A program made the translations under genes and the position numbers. The notes beneath the pieces were generated by a model. The model saw only the letters and a program-made list of their open reading frames with translations, was not told the origin of the DNA and searched no databases. From Elusimicrobiota bacterium (GTDB lineage Bacteria; Elusimicrobiota; Elusimicrobia; UBA1565; UBA9628), in NCBI GenBank assembly GCA_016194625.1, contig JACQBB010000403.1:1-8767 (forward strand): 8,767 bases of DNA, given 5' to 3'. How positions within the stretch are numbered: position 1 is the first letter of the stretch; the number at the start of each line of letters is the position of its first letter. This document shows, one piece after another, positions 1 to 8,767 of this stretch.

Positions 1-123
1 CGGCACGCGGTCGCGGTAGCGCGGCAGCACGTCCACGGTCCCCGACAGGCGGAAGTCCGCCGAGAAGACGTCGCAGCCCGCCAGCGCGGCCGCGGCGAGC
101 GCGAGCGCGGCGGCGCGTCTCAT
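1..123 (-). CDS. N-terminus of a lipoprotein, cut by the window edge
   Basis: Only the first 41 codons are inside the window; the frame is open to base 1. The start is MRRAAALALAAAALAGCDVF: two Arg, a short Ala/Leu hydrophobic stretch and a lipobox LAGC with the lipidated Cys at residue 17. This is a classic signal peptidase II signal, so the protein should be an envelope lipoprotein. The residue after the Cys is Asp, which in enterobacteria favours retention in the inner membrane; whether that rule holds here is unknown. The ATG overlaps the TGA of the DUF1189-type gene (ATGA, bases 120-123). There is no purine-rich ribosome site before it, so translation is probably coupled to that gene. 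The visible part of the mature protein matches no family I recognise. Confidence 0.75.
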   Translation of the reverse strand, partial: MRRAAALALAAAALAGCDVFSADFRLSGTVDVLPRYRDRVP

Positions 124-920
124 GCGGCGGGGGCGGGGGGCGGCGCGTCCGCGGAGCCGTGCGCGCGCACGCCCAGCCACAGGAAGGTCAGGCTCAGCCC
201 CGCCGACACCAGCGGCAGCAGCGGGATCGCGACCGGCGAGAGCGCGTCGAGCGCGTACAGCGCGCAGCCGGCGGTCTGCGCGTGGATGCCGAGGCGCAGG
301 AGCTGGGCGTAGCTCAGCGTCGCGCGCGCGGCCGAGGCGAGGAGCATCCCGACCAGCGCGTAGACCAGGCCGCTGACCAGGATGGAGAGCGCGAACGCCA
401 GGAAGAAGAACAGCAGCAGCGCGGGGTAGAAGATCCAGTCGAACGCGGCCTCCATCCCTTTATAGGTGCCGGCGTCCACCTTGATCGGGCGCTCGGACGC
501 CGCCTTCGACAGGTCGATCGTCTCGACCTGGCCCGAGCCGCGGTCCAGGTACAGCGCGTTGCCGGTCAGGTAGGCGAGGACCTTCGACTCCGTCATCTGC
601 GCGGAGGTCACCGGGTCCTTGCGCGTCGTGTCCACCATCAGCGCGACGTCCTTGGTGCGCGGATGCTCCAGGCGCGTCGGGCCGGGCGGCGTCGCCGTCA
701 CCACGCCGCCGGCGAAGTCGATCGTCGGCATGTTCGTCTCCAGCCAGGAGAAGGTCTCGGTGAACAGCGGCGCCAGGCGCAGCTTGACCGCGACGCCGAT
801 CGCGGCGACGAAGATCAGCGACAGGAACGCGACGTAGGAGGCGGTGCGGCCGGCCTTCTCCGCGGAGAAGCGCCGGTACGCGGCGGGACGGGACACGGCG
901 TCGAGCAGGTCGGGGAACAT
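120..920 (-). CDS. DUF1189-family integral membrane protein
   Basis: A 266-residue protein with the layout of DUF1189 proteins. A short cytoplasmic N-terminus is followed by a membrane segment at about 28-46, an extracytoplasmic domain at about 47-160, and a hydrophobic C-terminal half with segments at about 163-194 and 218-251. The extracytoplasmic part holds the typical features: a hydrophobic strand ending in the DTT motif (97-99), then a segment reading as residues LTGNALYL at 118-125. The YAQLLRLG stretch at 204-211 resembles the conserved cytoplasmic motif of the DUF1189/YIP1-like group. The biochemical role of this family is unknown. The tail is Ala/Pro-rich. The ATG at 918-920 is preceded by a -10-like hexamer and no Shine-Dalgarno site. 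The gene is followed by an overlapping lipoprotein gene, which suggests a joint envelope function. The family call rests on pattern recognition only. Confidence 0.7.
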   Translation of the reverse strand: MFPDLLDAVSRPAAYRRFSAEKAGRTASYVAFLSLIFVAAIGVAVKLRLAPLFTETFSWLETNMPTIDFAGGVVTATPPGPTRLEHPRTKDVALMVDTTRKDPVTSAQMTESKVLAYLTGNALYLDRGSGQVETIDLSKAASERPIKVDAGTYKGMEAAFDWIFYPALLLFFFLAFALSILVSGLVYALVGMLLASAARATLSYAQLLRLGIHAQTAGCALYALDALSPVAIPLLPLVSAGLSLTFLWLGVRAHGSADAPPPAPAA

Positions 921-1517: not shown

Positions 1518-2360
1518 ATGACCCGCACCCCGGCCTTCGTCGTGACTTTCCTGGCGCTGGCGTCCGCCGCCGCCGCCCAGCCCGCCGCCCTGAGCCAGCT
1601 GCGCTCCTGGGCCGGCCCCGAGGCCGTCGCGGCGTCCGCCGCCTGGACCGCCGCCCCCGCGCCGCGCTCCGTCGCCTACCGCCCCGACGGGCTCCCGGCG
1701 CTGCGCGTCTACGACGACGGGCGCGACGACGCGGCGCGCCTGTGCGGCCGCCTGCCGTTCGACTCGGACAAGAACTCCTGCCTCCAACAGGTCTCCCGCG
1801 CGCGCTACATCGAGCGCGAGGCCGCCGCGGTCTGCGCGAAGCTCAGCTTCAACGACTCGATCCCGAACTGCCTGACCGCGATCTCCGACAAGGCGTACCT
1901 GCGCGCGGAGACCGACGTGTGCGCGAAGGAGTCGTTCGACGACGACAAGGTGAACTGCCTGCGCGGCTCCGGCCGCTCGGAGTGGGGCCAGTACCCGGGC
2001 GCCGACGACCACCGCGAGGAGGCCGCCTCCGCCTGCTCGCGCGCGTCGTTCGACTCCGACCGCAAGGACTGCGTCCAGGTCGTCGGCCGCTCCTACTACT
2101 TCGACCGCGGGGCGATCGGCGTCTGCTCGGCGCTGAGCTTCTCGGAGAGCTACCCGAAGTGCTTCGGCGCGATCGCCGACAAGGAGTACCTGCCCGCCGT
2201 GTTGGAGATCTGCGCGAAGGAGTCCTTCGACGACGACAAGGTCTCCTGCCTGCGGTCCTCGGGCGCGCCGTGGCGCGGCCTGCCGCGCTGGCCGAACCCG
2301 GGCTACCCGCGCCCGCACCCGCGGCGCCCGTTCCCCCGGCAGCCGCTGCCGCCGCGCTAG
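1518..2360 (+). CDS. secreted protein with six C-x4-F-x6-C repeats
   Basis: A 280-residue exported protein of no family I can name. Residues 1-20 are a signal peptide, with a likely cut near AAAA-Q (20/21). Residues 76-244 contain six units of C-x4-F-x6-C, with Cys pairs at 76/88, 106/118, 135/147, 173/185, 203/215 and 232/244. The Phe is usually followed by acidic residues (FDSD, FDDD), and most units are followed by a conserved Tyr or by Leu-Arg. Units 1-3 and 4-6 form two copies of the same module, offset by exactly 97 residues. The even Cys count and constant 11-residue gap suggest one disulfide per unit; the acidic loops could bind a cation, but this is inference. The C-terminus (251-280) is rich in Pro and Arg. 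A Shine-Dalgarno site at 1504-1510 supports the ATG. The next gene converges on it, leaving 13 bases between stops. Confidence 0.75.
   Translation: MTRTPAFVVTFLALASAAAAQPAALSQLRSWAGPEAVAASAAWTAAPAPRSVAYRPDGLPALRVYDDGRDDAARLCGRLPFDSDKNSCLQQVSRARYIEREAAAVCAKLSFNDSIPNCLTAISDKAYLRAETDVCAKESFDDDKVNCLRGSGRSEWGQYPGADDHREEAASACSRASFDSDRKDCVQVVGRSYYFDRGAIGVCSALSFSESYPKCFGAIADKEYLPAVLEICAKESFDDDKVSCLRSSGAPWRGLPRWPNPGYPRPHPRRPFPRQPLPPR
1743..1958 (+). repeat. first three-unit Cys module (residues 76-147)
   Basis: This codes for units 1 to 3 of the Cys-repeat protein. It aligns without gaps to the second module, with 40 of 72 residues identical by my count. The third unit of each module is almost the same, reading CAKESFDDDKV then one variable residue and Cys. 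All six cysteines keep register. Confidence 0.8.
2034..2249 (+). repeat. second three-unit Cys module (residues 173-244)
   Basis: This is the second copy, 291 bases downstream of the first and in the same frame. A 25-residue linker carrying Trp, Tyr, His and acidic residues separates the two modules. The uneven similarity between units (3 with 6, 2 with 5, 1 with 4) shows that a whole three-unit block was duplicated, rather than six single units one after another. Confidence 0.8.
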
Positions 2361-2373: not shown

Positions 2374-2949
2374 TCATTTGGGCAGGCCCGTCCAGGGCGT
2401 CTCGGGACGGGCCTGCGCCTTGTTGGCCCAGCGCGCGGCCATGAACAGCCAGGTGGACAGGCGGTTCACGTAGACGATCACGCCGTCGGGGGCGGGCTCG
2501 CGCGCGGTCAGCTCGACGACCTCGCGTTCGGCGCGGCGCGCGACGGCGCGCGCGACGTGCAGCGCGGCGCCGGCGGCGCCGCCGCCGGGCAGTATGAAGG
2601 TCTTCAGCGCGGGCAGGCCGGCCTCCCACGCGTCGATCTCGGATTCCAGGCGCTTCGCGGCGTCGGCGGGCAGGCCGCGGTCGAACGGGGCGGAGAGCTT
2701 GGCGGCCTTGTCGGCGGGCGTGGCGAGCAGGGCGCCGACCATGAAGCACTCGGCCTGCACGCGCGCGAGCGCGGCGTCGAGGTCCTTCAGCGCGGCCTCG
2801 CCGGCCAGCGCGGCGCGCGCGGCGCCGAGGTGGCTGTTGAGCTCGTCGAGCGTGCCGTAGGCCGCCACGCGCGGATGCGTCTTGGGCACGCGCGCGCCGC
2901 CGAACAGGCCGGTCTCGCCCTTGTCTCCGGCGCGGGTGTAGATGCTCAT
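2374..2949 (-). CDS. pduO: PduO-type ATP:cob(I)alamin adenosyltransferase
   Basis: A cytoplasmic enzyme of 191 residues, the normal length for the PduO/MMAB family. It transfers the adenosyl group of ATP to the cobalt of cob(I)alamin to form coenzyme B12. The signature motifs are all present: YTRAGDKGETGLFGG at 4-18 (ATP binding), RVAAYGTLDELNS at 27-39 with the conserved Asp35, FILPGG at 118-123, ARAVARRAER at 133-142 and YVNRLSTWLF at 160-169. The last motif usually has Asp where Thr166 stands here. The ATG overlaps the TGA of the upstream peptidase gene (ATGA) and has a strong Shine-Dalgarno site, so the two are translated together. No B12-dependent enzyme is in the window, so which pathway it serves is open. 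The family call is firm; the symbol follows the subfamily. Confidence 0.93.
   Translation of the reverse strand: MSIYTRAGDKGETGLFGGARVPKTHPRVAAYGTLDELNSHLGAARAALAGEAALKDLDAALARVQAECFMVGALLATPADKAAKLSAPFDRGLPADAAKRLESEIDAWEAGLPALKTFILPGGGAAGAALHVARAVARRAEREVVELTAREPAPDGVIVYVNRLSTWLFMAARWANKAQARPETPWTGLPK
2382..2416. repeat. perfect 12-bp inverted repeat in the 3' end of the adenosyltransferase gene
   Basis: GCAGGCCCGTCC (2382-2393) and GGACGGGCCTGC (2405-2416) are exact reverse complements with an 11-base loop. The stem begins 22 bases after the stop of the plus-strand Cys-repeat gene and lies inside the last codons of the adenosyltransferase gene. For plus-strand transcription it could act as a terminator-like structure, followed by GCGCCTTGTT, which is a poor T-tract. 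For the minus-strand mRNA it would be a 3'-end hairpin that may protect against exonucleases. Confidence 0.5.
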
Positions 2950-4037
2950 CGCAGCGCTCCTTTCATGGACGCGTGCCGGGCCGTCAGCCGCGCGCGCAAG
3001 GTCCCGCGCAGGGTCTTCGCGGGGAACAGCCGCGCGGCCTCGACGAGCAGGCGCACCGCGCCCTCCACGTCGGACACGCGCACGCGCTCGGGCGCGACGG
3101 CGTCGGCGCCCCAGCCGTTGTGGTAGTTGACCAGCGGAACGGCGACGCCCGCTGCTTCATAGCCGAAGGTCTGGTAGGCGGTCGCCTCGCAGGTGCCGCC
3201 GGTCAGGCGCAGGCGCTGGACCTTCGTCCCTCTGCGGCGCAGGCGCGCGGCGGCGTCGTCGAGCAGGCCGACCAGGTTCGGGTCGAACGCGCAGGCCTTG
3301 TCGCCGAGGCGGATCGTGGGGCCGTTGCCGGGCTTGGAGCCGGGCAGCTCGCGCGAGGACTCGATGGACAGGTACGAGTCGTCGGGCGAGAGGACGCCGG
3401 AGCGCAGCATGTCGAGCGCGCCGACGAAGCCGACCTCCTCGGCGCGGTTGAGCAGGACGGTCAGGTTGGTCTTCGCGCGCGCGGCGGCCAGGCGGCGCAT
3501 CGCTTCCAACGAGACGGCGGCGCCCAGCAGGTCGTCCACCGAGCGCGAGTCGAGCCAGCCGTCCTTCACGCGGCAGGCGGGCAGGGAGAGCACGGCGAAG
3601 ACGGGCTTGGCGCCGGGCTTCGGCGGCAGGGTCCAGCGGATCGTCCACGGCGCGCCGTCCTTCGGCGGGCGCGGGCCGACCACGCCCAGCGCGAGCGGCG
3701 CGTTGTCCTTCGGGACCGCGGGGAACGCCTCGACCGCCGCGCCGGGCAGGAGGTGCGGCGGCAGGCCGCCCTGCAGGGTCGCGACCGCGCCGTCGCTCCC
3801 GACGGAGTCGAGGCGGAACGCGGGATGGTCCAGGTGCGCGGCCAGCGCCAGCGCCGGGCCCTTCCCCGCGCCGCGGTAGCTCACGATCAGGCCGCCGCGG
3901 ACCTTGCGCACGCTCGCGCGCCGGCCGAGGTGGCGGGCGATCCAGGCGCGCGCCTTCGCGGCGACGGCCTTCTCGCGGAACGGCGCGGTGGGGACGGAGG
4001 TCAGGCGCTGGAAAAGGGGGATGGCTCCGGGTCTCAT
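2946..4037 (-). CDS. dinuclear-metal aminopeptidase, M42/M28 type (clan MH)
   Basis: A 363-residue protein with no signal peptide, so probably cytoplasmic. The metal and catalytic residues of this clan appear in order: His68 and Asp70 in AHLDHP, the bridging Asp at 168/169 in SVDDLLGA, the Glu pair 200/201 in NRAEEVGFVGA (catalytic base plus ligand), Glu226 in SIESS, and His306 in NYHN after the GGTCEA motif at 280-285. M42 enzymes such as TET peptidases have a similar length and an EE-VG-x-x-GA motif, but usually Asp at the position of Glu226 and GGTDA rather than GGTCEA, so this may be a divergent branch. The expected role is release of N-terminal amino acids from peptides. It lies 22 bases after the FecR gene and overlaps the adenosyltransferase by four bases. 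A promoter-like sequence inside the end of the FecR gene may also drive it. Confidence 0.8.
   Translation of the reverse strand: MRPGAIPLFQRLTSVPTAPFREKAVAAKARAWIARHLGRRASVRKVRGGLIVSYRGAGKGPALALAAHLDHPAFRLDSVGSDGAVATLQGGLPPHLLPGAAVEAFPAVPKDNAPLALGVVGPRPPKDGAPWTIRWTLPPKPGAKPVFAVLSLPACRVKDGWLDSRSVDDLLGAAVSLEAMRRLAAARAKTNLTVLLNRAEEVGFVGALDMLRSGVLSPDDSYLSIESSRELPGSKPGNGPTIRLGDKACAFDPNLVGLLDDAAARLRRRGTKVQRLRLTGGTCEATAYQTFGYEAAGVAVPLVNYHNGWGADAVAPERVRVSDVEGAVRLLVEAARLFPAKTLRGTLRARLTARHASMKGALR
2957..2963 (-). promoter_or_regulatory. Shine-Dalgarno site AAAGGAG of the adenosyltransferase gene
   Basis: Read on the minus strand, AAAGGAG lies 7 bases before the ATG at 2949 and within the last codons of the peptidase gene. 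It is the strongest ribosome site in the window. Together with the ATGA overlap it fixes the start. Confidence 0.8.
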
Positions 4038-4043
4038 GCCGGG

Positions 4044-4073
4044 ATGATAGCCTTTCCGCTCAGCGGTCGTCAG
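4044..4073 (-). promoter_or_regulatory. promoter-like CTGACG-N18-TATCAT before the peptidase gene
   Basis: On the minus strand, CTGACG (4073-4068) and TATCAT (4049-4044) are 18 bases apart. TATCAT matches the -10 consensus at 5 of 6 positions and ends 6 bases before the ATG at 4037. The -35 part overlaps the last codons of the FecR gene. The mRNA would be leaderless. The only purine-rich stretch upstream, GGAAAGG, is about 13 bases from the ATG, too far for a good ribosome site. Read-through from the FecR gene is equally possible. Confidence 0.4.
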
Positions 4074-5217
4074 CCGGCGCGGGCGCGGCGGACTTGGGCG
4101 CGGACGCCTTCGGGGTGCCGCCGACGGGGCCGCCGAGCAGGGCCTGGAACAGCGCGTTGAGCATGGCCGGCGAGACCTGTCCGCCGGCGCCTCCGCCCGG
4201 GCCCGCGGTCCGCAGCTGCTGGAGCAGGGCTTGGTCCTGCGCGGAGAGCCGGGCGTCGGCCCCTCCGCCGGTCGGGTCGAAGCCCATGCCCCGCAGCGAC
4301 TTCGCCAGCGATTCGTCGATCCCGCCGAGGTAGGCGCCGCCGACGGTCCCGCTGCCGTCCACGCTCACCGCCGACGCGGTGTCGCCGTCGTCGGCGGCCG
4401 CGGCCTCGCCTTCGGAGGCGGCCGTCAGCCAGCCGTGGGCGCGCGCGAACTCCCGCAGCTCCTCCTGCTGGTGGGCGCGCAGCTCGGCGGAGTCGTCCAG
4501 GGTCAGGTCGCCGGTCTTGGCGAGCCGCGCGCGCTGGCCGCGCTGGCAGGCCGCGACCTCCTCGATGTCGCCGCGCAGGGCCCCGTTCTTGCCGTGCAGG
4601 CAGTCGGGCCATTCGCGCTCGACCTTCGGGGCCGCGGCGGACGCGGGCCGCTTCGACCCGTCCTCGCGCGGGTGCGGGAGCAGGCGCAGCGGGCGGCCGG
4701 CGATGACGAGCAGCGAGCGGTGGTCCTTCTCCGGCCCCAGCTCCGCGGTCTCGCCGTTCTGCAGGCGCACGGTCGCCGCGCCGTCGTAGACCACGACCTG
4801 GGTGTCGCGCAGCGGCGAGATCTCGACGGAGTACTCGGCCCCGGCCGCGGACAGGTAGGCGGTCGGCGTGCGCAGGCGCAGGCGCGGCTTCGGCGCCCTC
4901 TCGGCGAAGGCCTCGACCGAGCCCTCCTGCAGCTTGAGGTCGAAGCCCTTCGGCCCGATCTCGTCGACGACGAGCTCCGAGCCGCCCGCCAGCCGCAGCC
5001 GGCTGTGGTCGGAGAAGACCACCGTCGCCGAGGCCCCGCCGCCGGCGCGCACGTGCATGCCGGCCTTCAGCGCGGCGGGGAGCTTGGCGACCGGGACCCA
5101 GCGGTCGTCGCCGATCGAGGCGGTCTCGATGACGCCGGAGGAGGTGCCGATCCAGGCCTGCGCGCGCGCCGCGACGGCGGCGCAGGCGAGGAGCAGCGCG
5201 ACGGCGATGGTCCGCAT
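4060..5217 (-). CDS. secreted FecR-domain protein with a long disordered tail
   Basis: A 385-residue exported protein. Residues 1-19 are a signal peptide (cut near ARA-Q). Residues about 53-152 form a FecR domain: VRAGGGASATVVFSD at 56-70, a Leu/Arg-rich strand with GGSELVV at 78-84, LQEGSVEAF at 96-104, then RTPTAYLSAAGAEYSVEI at 116-133, the counterpart of the usual RTP...VRGT.F.V motif, and VVVYDGAATV at 141-150. A linker follows, then a region with Cys206 and Cys224 and a Gly/Ala/Pro/Asp-rich tail that looks disordered. Classical FecR proteins are inner-membrane anti-sigma regulators next to a sigma factor and a TonB receptor; none is here, there is no transmembrane anchor, and the domain starts right after the signal peptide. 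It is therefore more likely a secreted or periplasmic FecR-like protein than a sigma regulator. The function is unknown. Confidence 0.75.
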   Translation of the reverse strand: MRTIAVALLLACAAVAARAQAWIGTSSGVIETASIGDDRWVPVAKLPAALKAGMHVRAGGGASATVVFSDHSRLRLAGGSELVVDEIGPKGFDLKLQEGSVEAFAERAPKPRLRLRTPTAYLSAAGAEYSVEISPLRDTQVVVYDGAATVRLQNGETAELGPEKDHRSLLVIAGRPLRLLPHPREDGSKRPASAAAPKVEREWPDCLHGKNGALRGDIEEVAACQRGQRARLAKTGDLTLDDSAELRAHQQEELREFARAHGWLTAASEGEAAAADDGDTASAVSVDGSGTVGGAYLGGIDESLAKSLRGMGFDPTGGGADARLSAQDQALLQQLRTAGPGGGAGGQVSPAMLNALFQALLGGPVGGTPKASAPKSAAPAPADDR

Positions 5218-5266: not shown

Positions 5267-5836
5267 TCAGTTCCCGGGCGCGGACGGCGGGTCCGGCAGG
5301 ACCGACCACTGCGCGCGGTCGAAGTCGAGCGCGAACAGGATGTCGGCGCGCGGCGTCTCGCCGTGGTCGCCGCGCTGGTAGGCGAAGCCCAGGTACAGCC
5401 CGGGGGCGACCTCGCGGATCTCGTCGCGGATGCCGCGCGCGAGCGCCGAGGTGTCCTGGTAGTCGATGATCACCGACTCCTTGCCGTCGAGCCAGCTCGG
5501 GCCGTAGAACACCTTCGCCTGGACGTGCTTGCCGCCGAGGATCTTGTTGATCAGGCGGCCTTGCGCGCGGTCGAACACCTTGCCCTGCCAGAAGATCCCG
5601 AACAGGTCCTCCTGGATCCGGCCGACGAGGGTGCCGGGGAAGCCGGTCGCCGAGCCCATGGACTCGCCGTCAGGCAGCGCCCCGGCCTCGGCGGCGCGGT
5701 ACAGAGCCTCCAGGTCGCCGCGATGCTTTTTAAGGAGGGCCCGCTCGCGGGCGGAGGGCCCCAGGCGCGGCGCGGCCGCCTGCGCGGACGCCGCGACGGG
5801 GACCGACAGCAGGACGCCGAGGAGGAGGGCGCGCAC
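5267..5836 (-). CDS. small secreted protein of a conserved unnamed family, partner of the dioxygenase-like gene
   Basis: A 189-residue protein beginning with GTG. Residues 1-18 are a signal peptide (ASA-QA), so it is exported. The mature part has the marks of a conserved single-domain family: DLEALYRA at 41-48, PDGESMG at 55-61, FPGT at 66-69, WQGKVFD at 83-89, INKI at 96-99, AKVFYGPSWLDGKESVIIDY at 107-126, and RDEIREVAPGLYLG at 137-150. I recall similar unnamed proteins in other bacteria but no experimental function. No catalytic triad or metal site is obvious, and a lipid- or ligand-binding role is only a guess. The GTG lies one base after the TGA of the large heme peroxidase gene, with a strong ribosome site inside that gene, so the two are surely co-translated. 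This link suggests a role in the same fatty-acid oxygenation step. Confidence 0.75.
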   Translation of the reverse strand: MRALLLGVLLSVPVAASAQAAAPRLGPSARERALLKKHRGDLEALYRAAEAGALPDGESMGSATGFPGTLVGRIQEDLFGIFWQGKVFDRAQGRLINKILGGKHVQAKVFYGPSWLDGKESVIIDYQDTSALARGIRDEIREVAPGLYLGFAYQRGDHGETPRADILFALDFDRAQWSVLPDPPSAPGN

Positions 5837-5837
5837 G

Positions 5838-8767
5838 TCACTTCCCTCCCGCGGCGGCGCGCTCGTCGAGCAGCTCGCGCTGGGCGGCGCCGGTGTAGAA
5901 CGACCACAGGCGCTCCTTGCCGATCGCCGGCACCAGGCGGCCGACCTGCTCGTCCTCCCAGACCACGTGGTCGGCGAACAGCTCCATCAGCTGGTCGGCG
6001 CGGCGCTTGGCCGCGAAGCGCCCGATCAGGCGCTGCAGCCGCGTGCCGCGGCCCTCGACGGCGTCGCGCCACTGGTTGGCCTCGCGGACGCGGGCCAGGT
6101 CGTAGGCGGTCAGGTAGTCGCGCCCGCCGAAGTCGCGGAACAGGCGCTCGAACTCGGCGCGGTCGACGTTCCCGCGCTCCGGGCCCGTCTCGGCGTACAC
6201 GCGGGTGTTGCCGTAGCCCGCGGCGTCGATCAGGCCGGGCACGAACAGGTCGAAGCGCCCGGGCTTGAAGCGCGCTTTCTGCTCCGCGGTCATGCTCTTC
6301 TGCGACTTGGCCGAGAACGACAGGTGCGACAGCGCCGCGGTGACGAACGCCTTCGGCGCCGCCAGCCCGCCGCGCTTCAGCGCCGCGTAGCTGTCGGAGA
6401 ACGTCGCGACCGGCGTGTCCTTGCCTTCGAGCAGGAACCAGTAGCGCTTGGCGAGCGCCGTGTCGCCGGGCAAAGTCGCCGGGTCGACCTTCGCAGCGCC
6501 GCGGCGCAGGGACGCGAGCGTGCCGACGCGCAGGACGGCCAGGTCGGCGTCGAAGGCCTTCGCCTTCTTGAGGAAGGAGAGTCCCAGGACGAGCGCCGTC
6601 GCGCCCAGCGCGACGGCGGCGACGGGGTGCAGCGCGGACAGGGACCACGCGACCATGCCGGCCAGGTCCAGCACGGTGAACGCGCCGAGCTTCGCCCAGA
6701 GCCGGGCCGAGCGCGCGTCCGCCGCGGCCTCCTCGACCCGCGCGGTCAGCGCGGGACGCGCCGACGGCACGGAGCCGGCGGCCGCGCGGGCGACCTCCGC
6801 CGCCGACCAGCGCGCGCGGGCGCGCCGGTACAGGGAGTAGGTCAGCGCCAGCGGCGCCGCGGCCAGGCCGGCGGTCCACCACAACGGGGCGGAGACGAAC
6901 GGCGTCGCGAGGATCGCGGCCGTCGCGACGAACGAGAGGATCAGGCCGGCGTCGTCGGCCTTCTTGTCCGACGCCTCCGCCGCCGCGATCATCCGCGCCG
7001 GCAGGGTGCCCGGCGCCGCCCACGGGGCGAACGCGTTGGGCAGGGCCTCCACGTCGGCGGCGCGCAGGCCGGGGTAGGCGCGCGCCAGGACGTTGGCGAA
7101 GTTGGTGTGCTCGATGTACTCGATGCCCGCCGCGCCGTAGGTCCCGGCGCCGTACTGCTCGGACAGGAAGCGGTCGTTCTTCAGGCGCGCGGGCGCCGAG
7201 AGCACGAACACCTTGAACTGGCGGTTGCCCAGCGCGAACGCGTCCGGCTTGCGCTCGGCCAGGATGCCGATGGAGAAGTCCACCTTGTCCACGGAGCCGT
7301 ACACGGCGCGCAGCTTGTCGGCCGCCTCCCGGTCGCCGCCGGTGAGCTCCTCGAAGGTGCGCGGCGGGCGCTCGCCCAGGCGCGTCGTGAACTTCACGTA
7401 GGTGCTGGCCTCCAGGCGCTCGCGGGTGCGGATGGTGTCCACCGCCGCCAGGTCGATCTTGCGGCCGTCCTGCGTGGTCAGGTTGCGCAGGAGGTTCGGC
7501 GTGTTGTTGATGGCCAGGGCGCCGGACGATTCCAGGCCGTAGGACAGCGCCAGGTCCTCGCCGGAGAACTCCTTGAGCACGCCGGTGGTCTTGTAGCCGT
7601 TGGCGTCCTCGAGCGCCAGCTCCTTGAGCAGGCGGACCTCGACGGTGCCGTCGGCGTTCGGCTGGAGGCGCTTGATCTGGTACAGGTCGCGGATCATCGA
7701 GTGCAGGCGGTACACGTCGGGGAACTCCTCGACGAAGCCGTAGCGCTTGCCGTAGTGCTGGGTCGGGGTGCCGGGCACGCCGAACAGCAGCTCGTAGCGG
7801 ACCAGCTTGCCGAGCAGCTTTCCGAGCGCCGGGTGGCGGTCGGAGAAGCGCATGATCCACAGCTTCAGGCGCTTGCCGACGAAGCCGTACCAGTCGGCCC
7901 ACATGCCGTCCTGGAGGGTCGGGTGCGGCAGGAGCGCGCGCGTCCACTCGGTGGTGTGCAGGCGGGCGTTCAGCGCGGTCACGCGCAGGCGCGCCATCTG
8001 GAAGACGGCCTCGTCGTCCCAGTCCGGGTGCTCGGCCTTCACCATGTCGGCGACGCGGTTGTGCTCGAGCGTCCACACGGTGTGGAGCATCGCGAGCTGG
8101 GGCGTCATGTTGTCGTTGAAGCCGGTCAGCGGCACGCCGGGCTTCTCGGGGTCGTCGAGCAGCTTGCCGTCGGCGCCGATCTTGAGCTTTCCGTCCTTCA
8201 TGGTCCGGACCTGGAGCTGGCGCTCCAGGCTGGAGCCGTAGACCATCGACATGTCCCAGCCCGAGGTCTCCATGTTGCGGTGCACGGCGGGGCCCTGGTA
8301 GTCCTTCGGCAGGTTCGGGTCCAACTCGGTGCGGTCGAGCACGGCTTCCTTACTACCGTCGGCCGTCATCGGATGGCCTTCCGGCAGCGGGATGCGGATC
8401 GGGTCCTGGGTGATCGGCTGGCGGGCGTGGTTCTCCCAGTCGTGCACGTTGAACTGGATGTGGCCGGCGGCCCAGTCGTTGAGGATGCCGGCTTCCTTGA
8501 TGACGGGCTTGCCGTCGGGGCCGACCGCGCGCTTCTGCAGCTTCTCCGAGACGACGAACGGGTTCGGGTCCATCTTGTCGAAATGCGGGTCCGGCGGGCC
8601 CGCGGGCTCGCGGAGCTGGTTGAAGCGGGCGCCGGCCTTGGCCATCGACGGGTCCTGGTCGTCGAAGTACGAGCCGTCGGCGGAGCGGTGCTTCATCTGC
8701 GCCTCGGTGGCGGGGCCGTAGGCCTCGACCGCGGTGGTCGGCAGGGAGTTCGCGTCCCACATGTGCA
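5838..8767 (-). CDS. alpha-dioxygenase-like heme peroxidase fused to membrane segments and a caleosin-like C-terminal domain (N-terminus outside the window)
   Basis: At least 974 residues, counted from the first ATG seen (8762). The frame stays open to the window edge, and the first residues (MWDANSLPTT) resemble a segment that is internal in alpha-dioxygenases, so the true start is probably further upstream. Residues 1-566 are an animal-type heme peroxidase of the alpha-dioxygenase/cyclooxygenase branch. The distal His107 is in QFNVHDW. LEHNRVAD (232-239) and LHTTEW (268-273) follow. Tyr351-x-x-His354 (VYRLH) matches the catalytic Tyr and proximal heme His of cyclooxygenase (Tyr385/His388). 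Such enzymes add O2 to fatty acids. Residues about 605-645 and 689-731 give four membrane segments. Residues about 770-965 resemble caleosin/peroxygenase in layout: TFSDSYAAL, a hydrophobic stretch, then EFERLF, LTAYDL and a final KERLWSFYTG. The usual family length is near 640, so the last 400 residues are an addition. It is followed one base later by the small secreted-protein gene. Confidence 0.85.
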   Translation of the reverse strand, partial: HMWDANSLPTTAVEAYGPATEAQMKHRSADGSYFDDQDPSMAKAGARFNQLREPAGPPDPHFDKMDPNPFVVSEKLQKRAVGPDGKPVIKEAGILNDWAAGHIQFNVHDWENHARQPITQDPIRIPLPEGHPMTADGSKEAVLDRTELDPNLPKDYQGPAVHRNMETSGWDMSMVYGSSLERQLQVRTMKDGKLKIGADGKLLDDPEKPGVPLTGFNDNMTPQLAMLHTVWTLEHNRVADMVKAEHPDWDDEAVFQMARLRVTALNARLHTTEWTRALLPHPTLQDGMWADWYGFVGKRLKLWIMRFSDRHPALGKLLGKLVRYELLFGVPGTPTQHYGKRYGFVEEFPDVYRLHSMIRDLYQIKRLQPNADGTVEVRLLKELALEDANGYKTTGVLKEFSGEDLALSYGLESSGALAINNTPNLLRNLTTQDGRKIDLAAVDTIRTRERLEASTYVKFTTRLGERPPRTFEELTGGDREAADKLRAVYGSVDKVDFSIGILAERKPDAFALGNRQFKVFVLSAPARLKNDRFLSEQYGAGTYGAAGIEYIEHTNFANVLARAYPGLRAADVEALPNAFAPWAAPGTLPARMIAAAEASDKKADDAGLILSFVATAAILATPFVSAPLWWTAGLAAAPLALTYSLYRRARARWSAAEVARAAAGSVPSARPALTARVEEAAADARSARLWAKLGAFTVLDLAGMVAWSLSALHPVAAVALGATALVLGLSFLKKAKAFDADLAVLRVGTLASLRRGAAKVDPATLPGDTALAKRYWFLLEGKDTPVATFSDSYAALKRGGLAAPKAFVTAALSHLSFSAKSQKSMTAEQKARFKPGRFDLFVPGLIDAAGYGNTRVYAETGPERGNVDRAEFERLFRDFGGRDYLTAYDLARVREANQWRDAVEGRGTRLQRLIGRFAAKRRADQLMELFADHVVWEDEQVGRLVPAIGKERLWSFYTGAAQRELLDERAAAGGK
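5844..5850 (-). promoter_or_regulatory. Shine-Dalgarno site GGGAGGG deciding the GTG start of the small secreted protein
   Basis: On the minus strand, GGGAGGG lies 7 bases before the GTG at 5836 and within the last codons of the peroxidase gene. It decides in favour of the GTG start, which also begins directly at a well-formed signal peptide. Confidence 0.7.

Follow-up and report, generated by a model that had tools for sequence, protein, structure and literature searches.

Does a single bacterial protein combine an alpha-dioxygenase with a caleosin, and would the two parts work as one oxylipin enzyme? This question is raised by a long open reading frame in a stretch of 8,767 nucleotides from an Elusimicrobiota bacterium (contig JACQBB010000403.1; hereafter the window, meaning the whole stretch). 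Work on both protein families has centred on plants and, for caleosins, also on fungi. The original prediction, made from the letters of the window, had described a chain of alpha-dioxygenase, membrane region and caleosin-like domain, in which the last part would use the hydroperoxide made by the first. We found that these three parts indeed occur together in one chain, but that the residues expected of a caleosin peroxygenase are replaced. The protein is probably an exported enzyme held in the membrane, an alpha-dioxygenase producing 2-hydroperoxy fatty acids, whose caleosin-derived domain (here also called pseudo-caleosin) serves as a lipid-docking or scaffold module.

Counted from its first ATG, the dioxygenase frame runs from 8762 to 5838 on the minus strand and encodes 974 amino acids, and it stays open to the window end. 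The relatives that cover it fully are mostly about 1,170-1,260 amino acids long, and the longer ones align over 99-100% of the frame. The window is as long as the sole contig recorded for its protein (8,767 bases, P0001), and we take it as a complete contig on which the N-terminal end of the gene is missing. The frame of the original prediction is thus real, but its strand and its truncation had gone unmentioned. Our residue numbers (1-975) start at the contig end and are one higher than those counted from the first ATG. The named close relatives (P0004, P0008, P0011, P0017, P0023 and P0026) are Elusimicrobia/Elusimicrobiota proteins, and a more distant full-length relative, P0028, belongs to a Candidatus Obscuribacterales. 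Among 22 relatives, the dioxygenase domain was the most conserved region (67% mean identity to the window), followed by the caleosin-derived domain (56%) and the hairpin region between them (30%).

The N-terminal domain has the haem peroxidase/cyclooxygenase fold, and its nearest relatives are plant alpha-dioxygenases. The fold searches with the predicted model returned matches dominated by peroxidases and barely probed the caleosin-like part. The positions called His107, Tyr351 and His354 in the original prediction correspond to His108, Tyr352 and His355 in our numbering, and they are conserved in all or nearly all aligned rows (Table 1). In the rice enzyme, His157 is reported as the distal heme histidine, His311 and Thr316 as residues for carboxylate binding and alpha-carbon positioning, and Arg559 as the ionic contact with the fatty-acid carboxylate, while a tyrosyl radical mediates O2 insertion at the alpha carbon (PMC8720084). 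The window protein thus has in common with the plant and cyanobacterial alpha-dioxygenases (rice 4kvj, Arabidopsis 4hhr, and CalDOX and LepDOX as described in PMC8720084) the fold, the heme histidine pair and the catalytic tyrosine, as well as the carboxylate-binding His and Arg and the positioning Thr. In the dioxygenase-domain tree, it grouped with alpha-dioxygenases and not with animal peroxidases. This tree was made by a quick method from 75 rows and rooted on the peroxidase rows P0104, P0109 and P0110, with no cyclooxygenase; it omits P0004, P0017, P0018, P0027, P0105-P0108, P0111, P0112 and every second of P0030-P0099. Sequence and predicted model together support the assignment of this part as a bacterial alpha-dioxygenase whose residues for catalysis and for binding the substrate carboxylate are intact. 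The grouping with simple peroxidases that would have spoken against the original assignment was not observed, and an ordinary haem peroxidase lacking fatty-acid oxygenase activity is very improbable in view of the sequence, the tree and the carboxylate-channel residues. The solved alpha-dioxygenases stop behind the heme domain, at a length of 620-650 residues, whereas the window protein continues with two membrane hairpins and the caleosin-derived domain; some of its relatives also carry a leader that the solved enzymes lack.

The caleosin relationship of the C-terminal domain is visible only faintly in the window protein taken alone. The PF05042 profile gave 12 bits (E 0.2) with the whole protein and 15.9 bits (E 0.012) with the C-terminal domain, both under the Pfam cut-off, and the frame had no match in NCBIfam. 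A single-sequence search with the domain returned four matches, none of them Pfam-labelled. The profile check proposed with the original prediction thus gave little for the window itself, but it succeeded across the family: PF05042 matched nine of nine aligned domains (the window and eight loci) at E 0.1 or better, with 2.8e-11 as the best value. In a set of 24 proteins, four of which have no such domain, 13 matched at E 1 or better (best 7.9e-7). BLASTP of P0022 against one free-standing caleosin gave nothing useful, so that profiles were needed for the comparison, and a profile-profile comparison with 14 free-standing caleosins returned a probability of 99.5% and E 2.6e-23 over 187 columns. 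Since the nine domains and the profile-profile comparison agree, the caleosin resemblance is not due to chance although the window alone stays below the cut-off, and homology of the C-terminal domain to caleosins is shown at the sequence level. The C-terminus also gave a SnoaL-like match, with E 0.0088 in the window, with 0.0023 in the set of nine, where one member matched, and in 4 of the set of 24; it was below the cut-off and was taken as chance.

Caleosin/peroxygenases (PF05042) are found in plants, fungi and some bacteria, and bacterial caleosins are known from Sorangium cellulosum (PMC5957377). Their described hallmarks are a single EF hand, a region that binds lipid and two invariant histidines that coordinate heme (PMC6309107, PMC5957377). 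The fused domains differ from them in having neither the EF-hand loop nor the heme histidines, in an additional Gly-rich stretch (by eye), and in being joined to the enzyme that would supply the peroxygenase with its substrate. In the region of the lipid-binding segment, the model has a helix at residues 803-822, with no hydropathy peak above 1.3, and a proline knot was not seen by eye. The ligand counts separate the two groups: among 46 free-standing caleosins (a few of them identical over the counted stretch), the first heme His was present in 44, the second in 44 and the first EF-hand Asp in 46, and none was missing both histidines, whereas the 23 fused domains had 4 (P0008, P0013, P0021 and P0022), 0 and 0, respectively. 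P0028 and P0029, which are shortened there, were left out of the 23, and L002 and L003 also stand outside this count. In the window, the three positions are occupied by Arg774, Gly850 and Leu779. As judged from the alignment, the canonical peroxygenase site is absent from the window protein; a dioxygenase and a peroxygenase in one chain, as originally proposed, are therefore not supported.

Between the two domains, the model predicts four helices within residues 588-753, arranged as two long hairpins. Hydropathy analysis of this region ranked two of the segments as strong (means of 2.06 and 2.08) and two as weaker (1.3-1.5), so that the four membrane segments expected from the original prediction reappear as four helices of unequal hydrophobicity. 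P0021 and P0022 have an additional hairpin and the C-terminal half of a pseudo-caleosin at about residues 850-1180, as if the module had been partly duplicated. For export we scanned the N-termini of five relatives: P0003, P0008 and P0022 have a hydrophobic segment of the exported-protein type, suggesting by analogy that the window protein is exported as well. An Ala/Pro-rich leader with a hydrophobic start, contained in the N-terminal 200 residues of the relatives, also matched many otherwise different Elusimicrobiota proteins, some of them thousands of residues long.

Table 1 Coordinates of the fusion gene, its domains and key residues, and the neighbouring 189-amino-acid (aa) gene in the window
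Feature	Position	Strand	Basis or remark
Whole open frame	5838..8765	minus	open at contig end and N-terminally truncated; 975 residues, first ATG at 8762
Alpha-dioxygenase / animal haem peroxidase domain, residues 27-568	7062..8687	minus	
Distal heme His108 (rice His157)	8442..8444	minus	42/44 aligned rows (one gap, one Arg)
His270 and Thr275 (rice His311, Thr316)	7941..7958	minus	each 44/44 rows
Catalytic Tyr352 (rice Tyr379) and proximal heme His355 (rice His382)	7701..7712	minus	each 44/44 rows
Arg527 (rice Arg559)	7185..7187	minus	44/44 rows
Two helical hairpins, residues 588-753, likely membrane-embedded	6507..7004	minus	predicted model, hydropathy, identity by region
Caleosin-derived domain, residues 765-973	5847..6473	minus	profile matches, tree, identity by region
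Arg774, at first caleosin heme His position	6444..6446	minus	alignment
Leu779, at EF-hand loop position 1 (Asp)	6429..6431	minus	alignment
His814, former lipid-binding helix	6324..6326	minus	His in 22/23 fused domains
Gly850, at second caleosin heme His position	6216..6218	minus	alignment
Possible partner gene, 189 aa, signal-peptide-like start (by eye)	5267..5836	minus	one base after dioxygenase stop

Taken together, we propose that an Elusimicrobiota-type bacterium would export this protein and anchor it in a membrane by its two helical hairpins. The heme domain would take up a free fatty acid, a tyrosyl radical would abstract the alpha hydrogen, and addition of O2 would yield the 2-hydroperoxy acid. 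This product could then either decarboxylate to an aldehyde one carbon shorter or be reduced to the 2-hydroxy acid; 2-hydroperoxy acids, shortened aldehydes and 2-hydroxy acids are the products of the alpha-dioxygenase family in general. The C-terminal domain, of bacterial caleosin descent and devoid of the calcium loop and the heme ligands, would most likely serve for docking to a lipid surface or as a scaffold rather than as a peroxygenase. The hydroperoxide may be handed over to other proteins, namely a free-standing caleosin where one is present, the catalase-like domain of some relatives, or the 189-aa protein.

Several observations weigh against this proposal. P0025 and P0026 have the pseudo-caleosin without hairpins, so hairpin-based membrane docking is not general, and in P0026 and P0028 no leader was detected at the threshold used, so export is not established for all relatives. 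The loss of heme ligands is unevenly complete, since the first His is kept in the four fused domains named above (and by eye in L002 and L003), and six of the 23 (P0005, P0019, P0020, P0023, P0024 and P0026) carry a His displaced by one residue from the second site. The near-invariant His814 could be an alternative heme ligand. Furthermore, the lipid-droplet role of the pseudo-caleosin is borrowed from plants and fungi, and such droplets in these bacteria are conjectural.

The best of the alternatives, although itself unlikely, gives the pseudo-caleosin a part in protein-protein docking or regulation, with a protein such as the 189-aa protein or a free-standing caleosin as the partner it recruits. 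The 189-aa gene follows the dioxygenase stop so closely that the junction reads TGA C GTG, with GGGAGG upstream. A homologue with 44% identity lies directly 3' of the fusion gene in L007/L043, and another is fused to the C-terminus of P0016 (54% identity, E 1e-38); shorter and weaker matches lie near the N-termini of P0025 and P0026 (E 3e-4 to 5e-4), and a weak homologue occurs in Nocardia farcinica (33% identity, E 1e-7). Free-standing caleosins accompany the fusion in two of 11 fusion genomes, with both heme histidines in G207 and only the first in G187 (rows P0117 and P0118). However, L007 was the only one of the fusion loci examined that had the 189-aa homologue, only two of 334 genomes had one, one of these being a weak, spurious-looking match, and free-standing caleosins also occur in genomes with no detected fusion. 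The G203 match to the 189-aa gene overlies a dihydropyrimidine-dehydrogenase-like frame (named by eye) and was dropped. The 189-aa protein had no Pfam match at E 1, two homologues had none either, and its model, predicted from two sequences, reached a pLDDT of only 40.

Also unlikely, and somewhat more so, is a two-step enzyme in which the caleosin-derived domain uses different heme ligands, for example His814 and a partner, and consumes the hydroperoxide made by its own chain. The conservation of the domain, the retention of His814 and the remaining histidines at or next to the former heme positions speak for it. Among free-standing caleosins, a His stands at the His814 position in 25 of the 38 that are bacterial or metagenomic and in two of the eight that are eukaryote-like. 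On the other hand, neither the second heme His nor the EF-hand Asp occurs in a single fused domain; Arabidopsis AtCLO7, in which the EF hand and both histidines are missing, has been called "not a true caleosin" (PMC5957377); and the pseudo-caleosin module is also found without a dioxygenase. The latter is the case in a 588-aa protein of G187 (L046 1562-3328, on a 396-kb contig) that has a leader, both hairpins and a pseudo-caleosin but no dioxygenase, its domains being assigned by eye and by a family profile match. Doubtful, and rated lowest of these, is the full combination of an exported, membrane-held oxylipin enzyme whose caleosin-derived domain has re-invented its site from other residues and receives the dioxygenase's hydroperoxide; if it were true, bacteria would have united in a single machine two plant protein families that come together on leaf lipid droplets.

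An assembly chimera of two unrelated genes can practically be dismissed: although the window consists of one short contig with a cut end, dioxygenase and caleosin-like part are also combined in 17 further aligned database proteins (with hairpins in 15), and in other genomes fusion genes sit within long contigs.

The two trees, with their caveats, support a single origin of the fusion. In the dioxygenase tree, all 31 fused rows formed one clade (support 100), although the two fusion subgroups meet on long branches and, according to a program warning, their union could be false; L014, an unfused alpha-dioxygenase of the same phylum, neighbours this clade (support 91). In the caleosin tree (70 domains), the fused domains formed a clade of their own (100/100), placed among free-standing caleosins of bacteria (90/93) and apart from those of plants and fungi (99/94), with the rows nearest the fused clade on long branches flagged by the program. 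The simplest reading is that one fusion event joined bacterial parts and was followed by ligand loss in the caleosin half.

We surveyed the phylum of G001, the genome of locus L001 (titled Elusimicrobia bacterium). The family profile matched 45 of 340 genomes, and in 12 of these the match covered dioxygenase sequence. Eleven of the 12 have the fusion type, in some cases interrupted by a contig end, and G177 has an unfused dioxygenase; the remaining matches were to the leader only or to free-standing caleosins. PF05042 at its cut-off was found in 9 of 334 genomes, five with free-standing and four with fused domains, and in none of 14 control genomes. A protein search with five free-standing caleosins returned 41 caleosins, including five from Elusimicrobia/Elusimicrobiota, one from Myxococcota, one from a plant and two from fungi. 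Six Elusimicrobiota genomes have free-standing caleosins (L034, L035, L036, L037, L038 and L016) with starts that look like signal peptides by eye; all six have the first EF-hand Asp and four have both heme histidines, whereas L037 lacks the second histidine and L038 the first.

Variants of the architecture were also seen. In P0028 and P0029, a catalase-like domain (N-terminal 370 residues) precedes the dioxygenase; the Pfam match of P0029 is below the cut-off. Among solved structures, an approximate query with the P0028 domain matched best to 3e4w (8.7e-10), an entry described as uncharacterised, and to catalases; coral allene oxide synthase scored 0.0013. Coral allene oxide synthase-lipoxygenase fusions, as described in PMC5617202, likewise join a dioxygenase to a hydroperoxide-handling protein, but they use a lipoxygenase and not an alpha-dioxygenase, and the window protein has no catalase domain in the part present. 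The first 36 residues of the cyanobacterial alpha-dioxygenase P0051 match the end of the P0028/P0029 catalase-like domain. The L015 fusion of G187 has a shortened caleosin part followed by a further C-terminal stretch of 200 residues absent from the aligned relatives.

Elsewhere in the window, genes for a FecR-domain protein (4060-5217), an M42-type peptidase (2946-4037) and a cobalamin adenosyltransferase (2374-2949) lie downstream on the same minus strand. A protein with Cys-containing repeats (1518-2360, plus strand) gave weak galaxin-repeat and DUF4476 matches below the cut-off, and a DUF1189 protein is encoded at 120-920 (minus strand). In L001, where a full-length relative is encoded at 7974-11630, a short-chain dehydrogenase on the opposite strand adjoins the fusion gene, and a Pfam search of eight neighbouring frames made no lipid pathway evident.

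We did not find this fusion in print, as judged from titles and the beginnings of abstracts in open-licence PubMed Central. In Arabidopsis, caleosin 3 and alpha-DOX1 are both located on leaf lipid droplets and are reported to be involved in the synthesis of 2-hydroxy-octadecatrienoic acid (PMC10940516). These are the same two families as in the window protein, serving one product, but there they are two separate proteins, whereas here they form one chain with an inactive-looking caleosin. The parallel is striking as one of families, and it is not evidence of function. The presence of both families in one bacterial phylum, joined and free-standing, would offer a bacterial setting for the defence-oxylipin chemistry of plants, and the one-chain and free-standing forms lend themselves naturally to asking if the two proteins act as a unit. 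Since the caleosin domain has been retained across a deep clade despite the loss of calcium and heme ligands, a non-enzymatic role of caleosins becomes directly testable.
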